From Actinomycetota bacterium (lineage in GTDB: Bacteria > Actinomycetota > Acidimicrobiia > Acidimicrobiales > CADCSY01), in the NCBI GenBank assembly GCA_019348555.1, contig JAHWJH010000004.1:1-43340 (forward strand): DNA of 43,340 nucleotides, read 5' to 3'. The notes under the pieces were generated by a model. It was not told the origin of the DNA, made no database searches, and was given only the letters and a program-made list of their open reading frames with translations. Shown here one piece after another: positions 16,296 through 24,215 of the stretch. The position numbers and the translations under genes were made by a program. Each line of letters opens with the position of its first letter. Within the stretch, counting starts at the first letter, position 1.

Positions 16296-16366
16296 TCGGG
16301 GGTCGTCCAATGGCAGGACATCTGGTTTTGGTCCAGAGAATGGGGGTTCGACTCCTCCCCCCCGAG
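16296..16366 (+). tRNA. tRNA-Gln (anticodon TTG)
   Basis: The cloverleaf folds fully. The acceptor stem is TCGGGGG with CCCCCGA, followed by a G discriminator. The D stem is GTCC/GGAC with the loop AATGGCA. The anticodon stem TCTGG/CCAGA closes the loop TTTTGGT, with the anticodon TTG at 16328-16330. The variable loop is GAAT. The T arm is GGGGG-TTCGACT-CCTCC, with one G-U pair. The 3' CCA is not encoded (CCC follows). It lies between the divergent bS22 gene and glmU, 42 bases before the glmU start. A TAGCCT box at 16276-16281 may be its -10 element. Confidence 0.95.
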
Positions 16367-16408
16367 CCCGACGCGGCCCGCCCGGCGGAGGCTGCTAGCA
16401 ATCAAGGC

Positions 16409-17512
16409 GTGACCACACGAGCGCCGTGGTGCGTGGTCCTGGCCGCCGGCGAGGGGACGAGGATGCGGTCGGCCCGCCCCAAGCCCCTGCACCTCCTGTG
16501 CGGTCGCGCCATGCTCCTGCACATCCTCGACGCCATGGCCGAGGTTCCGGTCGCCAGGGCTGTGGTGGTGGTGGGCCACGGCGCCGAACGGGTCACCAAG
16601 AAGCTCGTGGACGACGGCCCCGTCGGTCTGCCGATCGACTTCGTCGAGCAGCAGGTGCAGCGGGGGACCGGCGACGCGCTCATGGTGGCGCTGACCGCGA
16701 TTCCCGACGACGACCTCGACGACGAGGACGACAGCGAGCTCGTGGTCGTTCCCGGCGACGCGCCGCTGATCCGCTCCAGCACGCTGGCAAAGCTGGTGGC
16801 CACCCACCGGGAGCGCAGCGCCGCTGCCACGCTTCTCAGCGCCCGCCTGCCCCAACCCACCGGTTACGGCCGGGTGGTGCGGGACCGCAACGGTGGCGTC
16901 CGCCGCATCGTCGAGGAGGTCGAGGCCAGTGCCGAGGAGAAGGCCATCGACGAGGTGGCGACCTCCATCTACTGCTTCCGGCGAAGCCTGTTGGCGCCCG
17001 CGCTGCGTCGACTGACCCCGGAGAACCGCCAGGGCGAGTACTACCTCACCGACGTGATCGCCGTCCTGGCCGCCGCCGGCCACCCGGTGACCTCCCTGCA
17101 GGCCGACGACGCCATGGAGACCGTCGGCGTCAACGACCGGGCGCAGCTGGCGGTGGCCGAGGCCGAGCTGCGGCGGCGCATCAACCAGCGGTGGATGGCC
17201 CAGGGCGTCACCATGGTCGACCCCGCTCGCACCTACGTCGAGAGCGCCGTGCGCCTCGACGTCGACGTGACCCTGTTCCCCGGCACGGTGCTCGGGGGCC
17301 ACACCGTGGTGGGCCGCGGCGCCGAGGTCGGTCCGGACACCCGCCTGGTCGACTGCGTGGTGGGAGACGGCGCCGTCATCGACCACAGCGTGGGTACCGA
17401 TGCCGAGATCGGCGCCGGTGCCCGCGTGGGTCCCTTCGCCGCCCTCGGCCCCGGCGCGGTGGTGCCCGCCGGGGCGGTGACCGGGCCGTTCTACACTGCT
17501 CCCGGGCGCTGA
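16409..17512 (+). CDS. glmU: GlmU-type N-acetylglucosamine-1-phosphate uridylyltransferase, acetyltransferase end missing
   Basis: The 367-residue protein has a complete N-terminal nucleotidyltransferase domain (about residues 7-235). LAAGEGTRMRS (11-21) binds the nucleotide, and QRGTGDALMVAL, VVPGDAPLI and NRQGEYYLTDVI follow the GlmU pattern. A left-handed beta-helix begins near residue 265 (FPGTVLGGHTVVGRGAEVG and similar hexapeptides), but the protein ends after about five turns with GPFYTAPGR. Bifunctional GlmU is normally about 450-480 residues. The missing part holds the acetyl-CoA site and the catalytic Lys/His/Tyr/Asn residues. It should therefore make UDP-GlcNAc from GlcNAc-1-P but not acetylate GlcN-1-P. 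The GTG start is weakly marked. It precedes prs by 16 bases. Confidence 0.9.
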   Translation: MTTRAPWCVVLAAGEGTRMRSARPKPLHLLCGRAMLLHILDAMAEVPVARAVVVVGHGAERVTKKLVDDGPVGLPIDFVEQQVQRGTGDALMVALTAIPDDDLDDEDDSELVVVPGDAPLIRSSTLAKLVATHRERSAAATLLSARLPQPTGYGRVVRDRNGGVRRIVEEVEASAEEKAIDEVATSIYCFRRSLLAPALRRLTPENRQGEYYLTDVIAVLAAAGHPVTSLQADDAMETVGVNDRAQLAVAEAELRRRINQRWMAQGVTMVDPARTYVESAVRLDVDVTLFPGTVLGGHTVVGRGAEVGPDTRLVDCVVGDGAVIDHSVGTDAEIGAGARVGPFAALGPGAVVPAGAVTGPFYTAPGR

Positions 17513-17528: not shown

Positions 17529-18554
17529 ATGGGCACTGGAAGCGGGAACGGAGGGTCCCACCGGGTTGGCATGGAGCTGGTGCCCAGCCGCAAGCTCCAC
17601 CTCCTCACCGGCCGCACCCACCCCCAGCTGGCGAGCGACATCGCCAAGCACCTCGGCGTCGAGCTTGGTGAGGCCAATCTCGCCGACTTCGCCAACTCGG
17701 AGATCCGCTGCCAGTTCGGTGAGTCGGTGCGCGGTGCCGACGTGTTCATCATGCAGACCCATGCCATGGGCCAGCAGCACTCGCTCAACGACGCCATCCT
17801 GGAGCAACTCATCATGATCGACGCCGCCAAGCGGGCGTCGGCCAAGCGCATCACCGCCGTCTGCCCCTACTACGGCTACTCCCGCCAGGACCGCAAGAGC
17901 CAGGGTCGCGAGCCGATCACGGCGAAGCTGGTGGCCGACCTGATGGCAGCGGCCGGCGCCAACCGGGTCCTCAGCGTCGACCTGCACTCCGGCCAGATCC
18001 AGGGGTTCTTCGACGGGCCGTTCGACCACCTCACGGCCATGCCGGTGCTCGTCGAGCACCTTCGCGGCCACCTGGGCAGCGAGATCGTGGTGGTCGCCCC
18101 CGACGCCGGGCGCATCAAGGCCGCCGAACGATTCTCCCGGCACCTCGGCACCGACATGGCGTCGGTCTACAAGCGGCGACGTCGGGGTGCGGTGCACCAG
18201 GTCGAGGCTCTCGGGGTCATGGGTGACGTGGCCGGTCGCACCTGCGTCCTGGTCGACGACATGATCGACACCGCAGGCACCGTGGTCGCCGCCGCCGACC
18301 AGCTCAAGGAGCGTGGAGCGACCACCGTGTGGGCCGCCGCCACCCACGGGGTGTTCTCCGGCCCGGCCATCGATCGACTCAAGAACTCCGTGATCGACCG
18401 GGTGGTCATCACCGACACCGTTCCGATGCCTCCGGAGAAGGAGATCGACAAGATCGAGGTGCTGTCGGTGTCCCAGCTCATCGCCGACGCCATCGATGCC
18501 GTGTTCGAGGACACGTCGGTGTCGGAGATCTTCGGCGGCGAGAACCAGTCGTAG
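17529..18554 (+). CDS. prs: Ribose-phosphate pyrophosphokinase
   Basis: The 341-residue enzyme makes PRPP from ribose-5-phosphate and ATP for nucleotide, His and Trp synthesis. Diagnostic segments are FANSEIRCQFGESVRGADVF, CPYYGYSRQDRK (ATP loop), SVDLHSGQIQGFFDGP (metal-binding DLH) and VLVDDMIDTAGTV (PRPP loop). The ATG at 17529 has GGAGAGG upstream and adds 14 residues before a second possible start at 17571 (MELVPSRKLH). It lies just after glmU, the common glmU-prs order that links nucleotide-sugar and PRPP supply. Confidence 0.96.
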   Translation: MGTGSGNGGSHRVGMELVPSRKLHLLTGRTHPQLASDIAKHLGVELGEANLADFANSEIRCQFGESVRGADVFIMQTHAMGQQHSLNDAILEQLIMIDAAKRASAKRITAVCPYYGYSRQDRKSQGREPITAKLVADLMAAAGANRVLSVDLHSGQIQGFFDGPFDHLTAMPVLVEHLRGHLGSEIVVVAPDAGRIKAAERFSRHLGTDMASVYKRRRRGAVHQVEALGVMGDVAGRTCVLVDDMIDTAGTVVAAADQLKERGATTVWAAATHGVFSGPAIDRLKNSVIDRVVITDTVPMPPEKEIDKIEVLSVSQLIADAIDAVFEDTSVSEIFGGENQS

Positions 18555-19865: not shown

Positions 19866-21101
19866 CTATCGGCCAAGGCAGGCGTTGACGACGTGCGGGC
19901 TGCCCCCGTCGACGTCGAGGAGCTGACCGGCAAGTCCGCGCCAGCGGGGGCGGAAGGCGTACACGCAGGCCAGTCGCAGCCGGCTGGCTGCGGCGTAGGC
20001 CACCATGCGCTCCATCAGCGGCGGCGCCGGGTGATAGCCCTCGAGAAAGGCGTCGGCCGCGACGTGGGCGGCGTCGAGGCTGGCGTGGCCCTGAAGGACC
20101 CGGAGCTGGAGGTGGGCGAACAGGTTGGCGACGTCGAGGGCCGGGTCGCCGATGGCCAAGGTGTCGAGGTCGAGGAGACCGACACCCGTGTGGTCGTCCA
20201 CGAGGATCTGCTTGTCGTGCATGTCACGATGGATGAGTGATGAAGCTGCTGCGGTGAGCCCGGCAAGGCGGCCGTGCACGTCGGCCAGCGCTGATCTGGC
20301 GGCCGCCGCCTCGGCGGGGGACAGCACCCCGTGCGCCAGGGAGTTCTTCGTCCATCGGTCGGTGACCTCGGCCTCAGAGGCTGCGTCGTGGTGGCGCGCA
20401 CCCGCCGGCGGTGGGCTCTCGTGGAGACCACGCACGGCGGCGCCGGTAGCTCGGAAGGCAGCCGACGTCTCCGCCTGGGACACGCCGGCGTCGCCGAGCA
20501 ATTCGTGGAGAGCGCGGCCCGGCAGCGCGCTGCACTCCACGGTCCCCGTCGAGGCGTCCGATGCAATGGCCACCGGCGTGCGCGCCCCGCCAAGCCCTTC
20601 GAGCGGCATGGCGCTCAACTGCGGCGAACGGCCATCGGGACGTACCACCTTGAGGTAGGTGGTGGCCGCAGGCCCGGACCGGCGAACCACGGCCCGCCGC
20701 TCGGGCCGGTGCACGAGAAGGGTCGACTCCGGATGGCCGAGGATGCCGGTCAGCGCCCGCAGTCGACGGTCGGCCCCGCCTCGTTGCAGCATCAAGCCGC
20801 GGTCTTTGATGGTCGTCACCAGTGCTGGGAACGCCGCCGCAGTCTGTCGGGCCACCGTCTCGAACTGGTCTCCGTCGGCGAACCACTGGGCCGCCACGGT
20901 GGCAACGGTGCGGTCCGAGTCGTCGACCTCGACGTACTCGAGAAGGAGGTGCCCGGTGCCACGAGGCCAAGCTCGACGCAGGCGCAGAACTCGACCGGTG
21001 CTCGGGCAGACAACCTCCACCAAACTCGCCAAGGTGCTCGTGCTGTCCCGTGGGTAGGGACGAGGCATCGCCATCCAGGGCGTCTGTGATCCGGAACTCA
21101 C
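19866..21101 (-). CDS. APH-fold phosphotransferase, last gene of the glycosyltransferase cluster
   Basis: The 411-residue protein has the aminoglycoside-phosphotransferase (choline kinase-like) fold. The catalytic loop is LIHRDMHDKQILVDD (HxD, with the metal-binding residue downstream), and the second metal site is GLLDLDTLAIGDPALDVANL. The N-terminal half is diverged and shows no clear glycine loop. Such kinases phosphorylate small hydroxylated compounds, including sugars, choline, amino alcohols and antibiotics. The substrate here is unknown. The GTG start overlaps the stop of the upstream kinase by four bases. The setting favours a role in making or modifying an exported glycoconjugate over drug resistance. 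Confidence 0.82.
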   Translation of the reverse strand: MSSGSQTPWMAMPRPYPRDSTSTLASLVEVVCPSTGRVLRLRRAWPRGTGHLLLEYVEVDDSDRTVATVAAQWFADGDQFETVARQTAAAFPALVTTIKDRGLMLQRGGADRRLRALTGILGHPESTLLVHRPERRAVVRRSGPAATTYLKVVRPDGRSPQLSAMPLEGLGGARTPVAIASDASTGTVECSALPGRALHELLGDAGVSQAETSAAFRATGAAVRGLHESPPPAGARHHDAASEAEVTDRWTKNSLAHGVLSPAEAAAARSALADVHGRLAGLTAAASSLIHRDMHDKQILVDDHTGVGLLDLDTLAIGDPALDVANLFAHLQLRVLQGHASLDAAHVAADAFLEGYHPAPPLMERMVAYAAASRLRLACVYAFRPRWRGLAGQLLDVDGGSPHVVNACLGR

Positions 21102-22372
21102 GGTCTGGCGGTCAGCGGCGACACTGTCGCCGCCCGCTCCAGCAGAAGTTTCGTCGCTTCCGGCCAGTCGGGCCAGCGGAGACGGAACGGCTCGACCGCC
21201 AGACGCACCAGGGAGGCGGCCACGTGGAGCACCACCCGTTCGCTCGCTGCCCGTCCACCGGCCGACCGGTAGCCGTCCAACAGCGTGGCCGTACGAGCCT
21301 CGAGCGGCCCGGCGCCCGCCCGGCTCCTGAGAGCGTCCAGCTCGAGCGTGGCCACGAACTGGCCCAGGTCGGTGGCCGGGTCACCGACACCAGACCGGTC
21401 GAAGTCGATGAAGGCGATGTCAGACGCCCCGATGATCACCTGGTCGGGGGAGAAATCGCCATGGCAGGGCGTCATGTCGATCGAGCCGGCGTCGAGGCGG
21501 CGAGCGAGGGCGAGGCCGAGGCGGGTGACCATCGAGCTGAGTTCGGGGACGAGCGCACCCACGCCGGCGGCGGCGGAGATGACGGCCTCGGCGTCGTCGA
21601 TGGGGGGCGACGGGGAAAGGCGGCCGGGCGGCTGGTCGTGGAGCGCGGCAAGCGCCAGGCCCACCTGGGAGAAGTCCTCGACCGGCCTTGCGACACCACC
21701 GCAGAGCTCGCTCAGCGGTACGCCGGACAGCCACGAGCTGGCGACGGCCCCTGCCCGGTTGGATCTGCCGATGAGCCGCGGGGTGGCGACGGGAATGGTG
21801 CGGGCGAAGCTCAGCCCGGCGCGGGCCCGAGCCAGATCACCGCCGCGGTAGCCCTTCACCAGGGCCACTGGTTCTCCGGATCGAGCGACGAGGCCTACCC
21901 AACGGCGCTCGGGCTTGTAGCGCAGGCACCGGGGTTCGTCCTTCCACAGGTCGGCTTCACCCGGGAGCAGCGAGCGGAGCAGCTGGCCTCGGGTGCCGGG
22001 GTCGGCCAGGCGGCTGGGCAGGCGCAGGTCCCGATCATCGGCCGTCCGGCCCACAACAGCCAGTTCCGTCTCGAAGGTGGTGAGCTCACCGCTCGACCGA
22101 CGGTCGCTGGCCTTGGCCAGCTTGGTCCGGTCACCACGCCCGTAGGCCTTGGCGAAGGCGGGGGTCCAGCGTCCGGCGACCTCGAGTTCGAGACCGACGA
22201 GACAGCTCGTCCCCGGCTTGTAGCGCACATAGCGGACCCGGGCCGATGTCGGCCCGGCACCAGGCCGGGCGGCTCGCAGCCGATCGGCGAGGGCGTCGGG
22301 ATCGAGGACGAGGGCGAGGCCCGGAATGGCGGTGTCGCGCCGGGCAACGGCGGCGTCAGCGGGCGCCAGCAT
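21098..22372 (-). CDS. APH-fold phosphotransferase, second kinase of the cluster
   Basis: The protein of about 424 residues has the APH-type core TPCHGDFSPDQVIIG (catalytic Asp) and AFIDFDRSGVGDPATDLGQF (metal-binding Asp). Its N-terminal region has two similar segments, RYVRYKPGTSCLVGLELEV and RCLRYKPERRWVGLV, which look like an internal repeat or two halves of a nucleotide-binding lobe. It is clearly distinct from the neighbouring kinase. The proposed ATG at 22372 overlaps the end of the ABC transporter gene by 17 bases; a longer N-terminus from 22558 would lie entirely over that gene and is unlikely. The substrate is unknown. Confidence 0.8.
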   Translation of the reverse strand: MLAPADAAVARRDTAIPGLALVLDPDALADRLRAARPGAGPTSARVRYVRYKPGTSCLVGLELEVAGRWTPAFAKAYGRGDRTKLAKASDRRSSGELTTFETELAVVGRTADDRDLRLPSRLADPGTRGQLLRSLLPGEADLWKDEPRCLRYKPERRWVGLVARSGEPVALVKGYRGGDLARARAGLSFARTIPVATPRLIGRSNRAGAVASSWLSGVPLSELCGGVARPVEDFSQVGLALAALHDQPPGRLSPSPPIDDAEAVISAAAGVGALVPELSSMVTRLGLALARRLDAGSIDMTPCHGDFSPDQVIIGASDIAFIDFDRSGVGDPATDLGQFVATLELDALRSRAGAGPLEARTATLLDGYRSAGGRAASERVVLHVAASLVRLAVEPFRLRWPDWPEATKLLLERAATVSPLTARP

Positions 22373-24215
22373 CGCGTATCCTCGGCCGCCGAGCCGCGGC
22401 CGACGGTTGTCGACGGGCGCGGCCGTCCGCTCGGGTGGACCTGCGGGAGATGAGGCGGCCGCCGAAATCCAGTACATCGCCTGGCGGGCCCTGGGCCACC
22501 ACCCGACCGTCCTCGAGGGCGATGACGACGTCGGCGTCGCGAACAGCGCCCAGGTCATGAGCGATCACAAAGGTGGTGCGCCCGGCGGTCAGACGCCGCA
22601 GAGCTTCACCCACCTCGGCCTCGTTGGCGCCGTCGAGACCGGTCATGGCCTCGTCGAGGACCACGATCGGAGCGTGACGGATGGCCGCCCGGGCGATGGC
22701 AAGGCGCTGGCGCTGGCCGCCCGAGAGGGTGGCACCCCGCTCACCGATCACGGTGTCATAGCCGTCGGGCAGGGCGGTGATGAAGTGGTGGGCGTTGGCC
22801 AGGACGGCCGCAGCCTCGATCTCCGCATCAGTTGCCCCTGGTGATCCATGGCCGATGTTCTCGCGAACGGTCGTCGCGAACAGCACGCTGTCCTGGAGGA
22901 CGATGGCCACCTGCCGGCGCACCGAGGCGAGGGTGAGGTCGCGTAGGTCGAGGCCGTCGATCAGCACCTGGCCGTGGCTCGGTTCGTAGAGGCGCAGCAG
23001 CAGACCCATGAGCGTCGACTTGCCGGCACCCGACGCGCCGACCACGCCCACGCGTTGACCCGCGCCCACGTGCAGATCGAGATCGTGAAGCACCGGATGC
23101 CCCGGTTCATGGGCAAAGGTGACACCAGAGAAGCGAATGTCGCCCTCGAACGACGGCGCCTCTCGAGCCCCGGGCCTGTCGCGGATCTCGGGCTCGGTGT
23201 CGAGCAGTTGGATGATGCGCTCGCCCGACGCCGATGCCTTGGCCAGCCTTCCGGTGTACTTGGCCACGTCGCGCATGGGTCGGAACGCCTGCTTGAGATA
23301 CGACACGAACAGCACCAGGTCGCCGGGCGTCAGGTGTCCGGAGAGGACGCGGCGGGCGCCGAGGAACAGCACCAGTCCTGTGGCCAGAGCCACCAGCACG
23401 TCGGTGGTGCGCTCCAGGCCGGCCGACAGGCGTGTTGCCTTCACTCCGTCGCGCAGGCTGCGATCGTTGTTCACCGCGAAGCGGCGCTCGAGGGTCTCCT
23501 CCAGCGCGTAGGCCTGTACCACCGTCATCGCTCCCAGGGCTTCTGAGGCCACCGACGCCAGTTCACCCTCCTGCTGGCGCTGCTTCCGCGACACCTGGGT
23601 GATGCTCCGGCTCATGCGCACACCGGAGAGGGCGAAGAGCGGGAAGGTGGCGGCGGCCACGAGGGCGAGCTGCCAGTCGACCCACGCCATGACCGCCGCC
23701 ATGCCCACCAGGGTGACGGCGTTGCCGGCGAGGGGCAGGGCGGCGGTCACCGTGACCTCCTGGAGCCGCCCCACGTCGCCCGTCATGCGGGTGAGGAGGT
23801 CGCCGGCGCGGGCCCTGCCGTGGAAACCCAGAGACAGGCGCTGCAGGTGGGCGTACAGGTCGGCCCTGACCTGGGTGACCACCCGGTTCCCCGCCAGGGC
23901 GAACGCCACGGTGCAGAGGTAGGAGGCCAGCGCCCGCAGGCCGGTGAGGACCACCACGGCCACCGCCGCCACCGCCAGCACGGTGGTGGAGCCGCCGAAG
24001 GCGTCGGGCTGTCCGGCAGGCTCCACGATGGTGTCGATGATGAACTTGAGCGGCCACGGTTCGGCCAGGCGCAGCAGTACCTCCATGAGAAGCGCCAACG
24101 ACCCGCCGACGATCACCGCCCGCTGGCCCCGAAGGTGTGGCCCGAAGCGGCGCAACGTACGCAGCAGGCCGGGCACCGCCTCCCGTAAGGACGTCGTGGG
24201 AGCTGAGGTGGTCAT
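22356..24215 (-). CDS. ABC exporter, fused permease and ATPase
   Basis: The 619-residue half-transporter has six membrane helices (about residues 30-320) and a C-terminal ATPase. The ATPase has Walker A GASGAGKST, signature LSGGQRQRLAIARA, Walker B IVVLDEAMTGLD and the H-loop VIAHDL. It belongs to the MsbA/lipid-drug exporter class and would act as a homodimer. The last 40 or so residues are Arg/Ala-rich and may be disordered. Its ATG overlaps the stop of the upstream glycosyltransferase by three bases. Placed between three glycosyltransferases and two kinases, it most likely flips or exports their product. A lipid-linked sugar is plausible but not shown. Confidence 0.92.
   Translation of the reverse strand: MTTSAPTTSLREAVPGLLRTLRRFGPHLRGQRAVIVGGSLALLMEVLLRLAEPWPLKFIIDTIVEPAGQPDAFGGSTTVLAVAAVAVVVLTGLRALASYLCTVAFALAGNRVVTQVRADLYAHLQRLSLGFHGRARAGDLLTRMTGDVGRLQEVTVTAALPLAGNAVTLVGMAAVMAWVDWQLALVAAATFPLFALSGVRMSRSITQVSRKQRQQEGELASVASEALGAMTVVQAYALEETLERRFAVNNDRSLRDGVKATRLSAGLERTTDVLVALATGLVLFLGARRVLSGHLTPGDLVLFVSYLKQAFRPMRDVAKYTGRLAKASASGERIIQLLDTEPEIRDRPGAREAPSFEGDIRFSGVTFAHEPGHPVLHDLDLHVGAGQRVGVVGASGAGKSTLMGLLLRLYEPSHGQVLIDGLDLRDLTLASVRRQVAIVLQDSVLFATTVRENIGHGSPGATDAEIEAAAVLANAHHFITALPDGYDTVIGERGATLSGGQRQRLAIARAAIRHAPIVVLDEAMTGLDGANEAEVGEALRRLTAGRTTFVIAHDLGAVRDADVVIALEDGRVVAQGPPGDVLDFGGRLISRRSTRADGRARRQPSAAARRPRIRDAGAR

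Follow-up and report, generated by a model that had tools for sequence, protein, structure and literature searches.

Bacterial UDP-GlcNAc synthesis is described as relying on a bifunctional enzyme, GlmU, each of whose two activities is studied as a drug target. The glmU gene discussed here raises the question of which enzyme acetylates glucosamine phosphate in a bacterium whose GlmU ends before the acetyltransferase site. The gene lies in the window, by which we mean the whole stretch of 43,340 nucleotides that was analysed. It is nearly certain that GlmU has been truncated and that acetylation has been outsourced, and a small GNAT, called A1 below, is our best candidate for the replacement acetyltransferase, as inferred from its co-occurrence with truncated GlmU.

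A uridylyltransferase-only glmU gene

The features of the locus are as follows.

16296..16368, plus strand: tRNA-Gln (TTG), directly upstream of glmU (ARAGORN)
16409..17512, plus strand: glmU, uridylyltransferase-only form, 367 aa, with a likely GTG start and a TGA stop at 17510-17512
16430..17170 (limits approximate), plus strand: uridylyltransferase domain of glmU (Pfam PF00483/PF12804, TIGR01173; catalytic motifs)
17200..17509 (limits approximate), plus strand: residual left-handed beta-helix of glmU, about five turns (alignments, Hexapep PF00132)
17447..17449, plus strand: codon of Gly347, at the place of the 'LRPG' Arg of full-length GlmU (Mtb R344), by alignment
17529..18554, plus strand: prs, ribose-phosphate diphosphokinase (NCBIfam PRK03092, 446.3 bits, above the cut-off), with an ATG start

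The GTG at 16409 is preferred as the start of glmU because the ATG at 16310, which would open a longer frame, sits within the tRNA-Gln gene. The initial annotation described a complete uridylyltransferase part, a beta-helix that stops after about five turns and a next gene that begins 16 bases on, and each of these descriptions holds. The motifs LAAGEGTRM, PKPLH, GTGD, GDAPL, GYGR and GVND are all found in the window protein, its match to NCBIfam TIGR01173 covers positions 4-344 of 452, and 16 bases separate the glmU stop from the ATG of prs at 17529. With 343.7 bits, this match falls below the equivalog cut-off of the family (366.85 bits). The closest PDB matches are GlmU chains, and 3d8v (Mtb, 495 aa) is aligned only up to residue 359. 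Ending at 344/452 and with the LRPG Arg replaced, the protein lacks a complete C-terminal beta-helix with an acetyltransferase site. The initial annotation had also stated that the missing half is not simply in another frame, and indeed no frame of the window encodes it (best tblastn E 0.40), and no second copy of this half was found at E<=10 in the source assembly, a MAG of 283 contigs that is 85.8% complete. The gene product is best explained as a monofunctional GlcNAc-1-phosphate uridylyltransferase, as predicted from its motifs.

Compared with bifunctional GlmU (TIGR01173; E. coli, M. tuberculosis), the uridylyltransferase is orthologous and has the same motifs, whereas the form found in the order lacks the C-terminal beta-helix half that bears the acetyl-CoA and GlcN-1-P site. 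Its uridylyltransferase with a partial beta-helix, cut at a similar site, resembles the laboratory-truncated E. coli GlmU (PDB 1fwy/1fxj, 331 residues). However, that protein is a man-made construct, whereas the truncation described here is natural and order-wide. On the minus strand of the window (19866-22558), two neighbouring APH-family phosphotransferase genes lie next to an ABC transporter and glycosyltransferases.

Loss of the acetyltransferase half in Acidimicrobiales

A GlmU match was found in 49 of 59 relatives, which come from many families of the order. All 30 of the relatives' GlmU sequences that were read have the same C-terminal end as the window's, and 30 of 30 order members retain every uridylyltransferase motif. 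In an alignment of order members, the truncated proteins share a conserved tail, 'VGPFaxLxPG...TGpFyta'. We also used a class-wide sample in which every genome except the window's own is at least 90% complete. Truncated GlmU occurred in all 31 Acidimicrobiales genomes having a GlmU match, and all end at or before position 362 of TIGR01173: 29 end at positions 333-347, and of the two outlying proteins, the match in G017 runs beyond a stop to 362 and that in G086 ends at 240. By contrast, in the 66 genomes of other orders whose GlmU scored above the family cut-off, the protein always extends to at least position 431. The initial annotation had pointed to the GlmU lengths of close relatives as a check on its reading. 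Within the order all detectable GlmU are truncated, which leaves that reading unrefuted, and full-length forms were found only in other orders.

When the uridylyltransferase part was used to build a maximum-likelihood tree, truncated GlmU fell into a single clade (99/98) nested within full-length forms. Since this nesting implies one old loss, and since full-length GlmU is seen only between orders and not within this one, which places the loss in the ancestor of the order, we regard it as shown, on phylogenetic grounds, that the acetyltransferase half was lost once, long ago, in that ancestor. Judged from its residues, the remnant has also lost the acetyltransferase constraint. The position of the 'LRPG' Arg, which is equivalent to Mtb R344 by counting along the alignment with 3d8v and belongs to the GlcN-1-P site, holds Arg in 0 of 30 truncated GlmU vs all full-length ones examined. 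In one order member (G086:C27, L427), GlmU is without any beta-helix, with the C-terminus '...AEAETIMKRRLG*' followed by prs; from this genome, the remnant beta-helix seems dispensable. In open-access papers, we did not find truncated GlmU in Acidimicrobiales described. If our reading is true, an abundant actinobacterial order of soil, freshwater and marine habitats is without one GlmU activity, the automatic annotation 'bifunctional GlmU' is wrong in the order, and pathway models are short of a gene.

A candidate replacement acetyltransferase

Our enzyme inventory covered two families, PF00583 (GNAT) and PF00132 (Hexapep). A second left-handed beta-helix acetyltransferase, which the initial annotation had considered, was not supported, as no order-wide one was found. 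The standalone beta-helix proteins of the window's genome were DapD, nucleotidyltransferases and one short fragment only. Those of six well-assembled relatives, named from sequence reading, were DapD, CysE, gamma-carbonic-anhydrase-like, NeuD-like and LpxA-like proteins and nucleotidyltransferases; no acetyltransferase-like one common to all six was seen, and the carbonic-anhydrase-like protein was absent from G042 and the window's genome when searched. No acetyltransferase gene is conserved within the glmM-glmS operon. Downstream of glmM, many order members carry a GlmS-like protein of ~1120-1240 aa starting with MCGI (for example G000:C273:4917-6626, and loci L098 and L100), which reaches only 207-238 bits against TIGR01135 and has a long insertion and a C-terminal extension; an ordinary ~610-aa GlmS takes its place in 17 of 57 genomes. 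No acetyltransferase domain was recognised by eye inside the long protein, and GlmU is truncated in the genomes with ordinary GlmS too.

The GNAT inventory is small, at 10-15 per genome, and three families were found in all five genomes compared (the window's genome and four well-assembled relatives): mycothiol synthase; A2, an ArsN1/PPT-like GNAT (G000:C144:16815-17297 in the window's genome); and A1, a GNAT of 142 aa (G000:C199:26137-26565 in the window's genome; NZ_CP077604.1 about 2496582-2496998 in Aquihabitans sp. G128). Of the 35 order genomes, 34 have A1 (165-254 bits), against 3 of 75 genomes outside the order (G100, G102 and G150, 181-187 bits; next best <=78). Records with A1 bear the names Aquihabitans, Ilumatobacteraceae and Microthrix, which identify the order as Acidimicrobiales. 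In a tally that ignores relatedness, A1 is present in 31 of 32 genomes with truncated GlmU vs 2 of 66 with the full-length form. Several points count against a role of A1: the order-wide co-occurrence amounts to a single event in evolution, a pattern to be expected of every gene specific to the order; G151 has truncated GlmU and no A1; G100 and G102 carry A1 alongside full-length GlmU with an intact acetyltransferase half; and no linkage to cell-wall genes was found at the A1 loci, which are flanked by genes for GlnD, Nudix, PAC2 and citrate synthase (named from sequence reading).

The independent case of co-occurrence is one genome, G150. This member of another order has A1 together with a GlmU that terminates after the uridylyltransferase ('...LSRRRQSNTD*') and is followed by prs. 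Sister genera have kept GlmU whole: the protein is full-length in five relatives from the family of G150 (G064, G108, G116, G140 and G148), none of which shows a strong A1 match. Because the uridylyltransferase of G150 is nested with those of full-length G116 and G140 (97/90), its GlmU loss is a second, independent one. The chance that the single truncated genome outside the order would be an A1 carrier is 3/67 among assessable genomes (p about 0.045). In the A1 tree, the G150 copy clusters with the G100 and G102 copies (support 91), inside the Acidimicrobiales copies (support 90), which suggests that these three genomes acquired A1 by lateral transfer, and G100 and G102, with A1 and intact GlmU, may represent an intermediate state. 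Two MAG records titled Bifidobacterium breve (L348 and L358) have A1 copies that group among those of Acidimicrobiales; from this placement, the titles look wrong. Outside the class, A1 is also present in genomes of Chloroflexota (ADurb.Bin325, L386) and Acidobacteriota (L357, L360, L383).

A1 contains the invariant motif 'IPTGxRAxIEDVVVD' and the conserved motif 'DLTSRPSRxAANRLY'. Its GNAT fold is indicated by a PF00583 match and by an AlphaFold2 model (pLDDT 95.5) with Z up to 18.5 to GNATs. The fold did not serve to identify A1 as GNA1, as GNA1s, at Z 16-17, tie with other GNATs, at Z up to 18.5. In a profile search of the PDB, the second-best chain was 3fb3, a T. brucei acetyltransferase (E 2.4e-9) that we take to be T. 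brucei GNA1; the GNA1s of T. brucei, C. elegans, human and Arabidopsis were similar to A1, and other GNA1 chains stood lower in the list. A Glu-Asp pair is also found in other GNATs, such as SSAT. In C. elegans GNA1, Glu104 and Asp105 bind the 3- and 4-hydroxyls of the sugar, Tyr149 stabilises the thiolate, Lys136 and Arg164 are phosphate ligands, and Cys141 is conserved (PMC3413214). By the alignment with 3fb3, E75, D76 and Y123 of A1, invariant in 35 sequences, match the Glu-Asp pair and the Tyr, and A1 resembles eukaryotic GNA1 also in being a small single-domain GNAT, with the pair set in 'IED(V/I)VVD', and in its profile similarity. It differs in that the positions of the phosphate Lys and the conserved Cys are Thr/Ser by alignment, the Lys not being conserved, in that it has a C-terminal 'RETNVYR' tail, and in that its activity is predicted. 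The C-terminal Arg of A1 may correspond to Arg164 of GNA1. On these residues, we do not class A1 as GNA1, yet it may work like one.

To our knowledge, apicomplexan parasites have no GlmU. In Apicomplexa, a separately recruited GNAT took over GlcN-phosphate acetylation (PMC5838249), which is a precedent for such recruitment, and the apicomplexan GNA1 of C. parvum (6yug) is similar to the A1 model (Z 17.2). However, it belongs to another lineage, and its substrate is GlcN-6-P. A bacterial GNAT for this acetylation step was not found described in open-access papers.

Proposed route and alternative explanations

We suggest, with a probability of about 0.6, a route in which GlmS or the GlmS-like protein would make GlcN-6-P, an ordinary GlmM would turn it into GlcN-1-P, A1 would move an acetyl group from acetyl-CoA onto the amine of GlcN-1-P, and the truncated GlmU would uridylylate GlcNAc-1-P to UDP-GlcNAc. 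That another enzyme must acetylate the sugar had been proposed from the locus itself, and this proposal gains support, the best candidate being a GNAT with GNA1-like features. We infer GlcN-1-P as the substrate of A1, and GlcN-6-P is less likely. It is about equally probable that the order replaced half of GlmU by an unrelated GNAT, that this was repeated in another order after A1 had been acquired, and that the genomes with A1 and intact GlmU are possible intermediates. If true, half of an essential enzyme would have been displaced in nature by a non-orthologous protein, in a case that offers a candidate gene, two independent losses and possible intermediates.

A different order of steps, as in eukaryotes, was also raised by the initial annotation. 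With A1 as the enzyme, A1 would acetylate GlcN-6-P like GNA1, and GlmM or a paralogous mutase would isomerise GlcNAc-6-P to GlcNAc-1-P. The GNA1-like motif of A1, its profile similarity to the GNA1s named above and a second PGM-type mutase in order genomes speak for this order, and the GNAT part of that suggestion has gained ground. The mutase part is weakened by two findings on GlmM: all 30 sequences carry the canonical GGEQSGH motif, which speaks for GlcN-1-P being acetylated downstream of GlmM, and the GlmM cut-off is passed in 53 of 57 genomes. Moreover, the phosphate Lys of GNA1 (PMC3413214) is not conserved in A1. We thus consider this order of steps doubtful. An acetyltransferase from outside the GNAT and beta-helix families is rather unlikely: our inventory was limited to PF00583 and PF00132, which leaves room for one, but all enzymes for GlcN-phosphate acetylation known to us are beta-helix or GNAT proteins. 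There is little to recommend another order-conserved GNAT such as the ArsN1/phosphinothricin-like A2, which occurs in 33 of 35 order genomes. A2 also gave strong matches in 21 of the 75 genomes from other orders, and GlmU is full-length in nearly all of these 21. Its match in G150 is weak (114 bits), and ArsN1 and PPT acetyltransferase are the named families nearest to it.

It would be conceivable that sugar phosphates are not acetylated de novo at all, GlcNAc being salvaged, or GlcN-1-P being uridylylated and then acetylated. The residue aligned with the sugar-site Asn of GlmU is indeed variable in the window's genus (EVN to EVA), but the Asn is retained in most order members. Furthermore, the de novo route as far as GlcN-1-P is intact, given that all 57 genomes have glmM and that, at the threshold used, 45 of them gave a match for glmS or a GlmS-like gene. 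We regard salvage or late acetylation as very improbable. Finally, the fragmented and incomplete MAG from which the window comes might suggest an assembly error, a frameshift or a decaying pseudogene. This is hardly credible, because the same GlmU form is found in the 49 relatives, including single-contig G013, G017 and G042, and its new C-terminal tail is conserved; an end that is alike in relatives is not the product of chance, frameshift or assembly error.

Some order members are without a GlmU match at E<=1e-30 (G001, G036, G037, G040, G043, G044, G045, G049, G058, G094 and G153), all of them about 89% complete or higher. In the search of relatives, 8 of 45 good genomes gave no GlmU match, which exceeds the expectation from incompleteness, and the uridylyltransferase may have been replaced in these members. 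Four of them (G043, G044, G094 and G153) carry A1.
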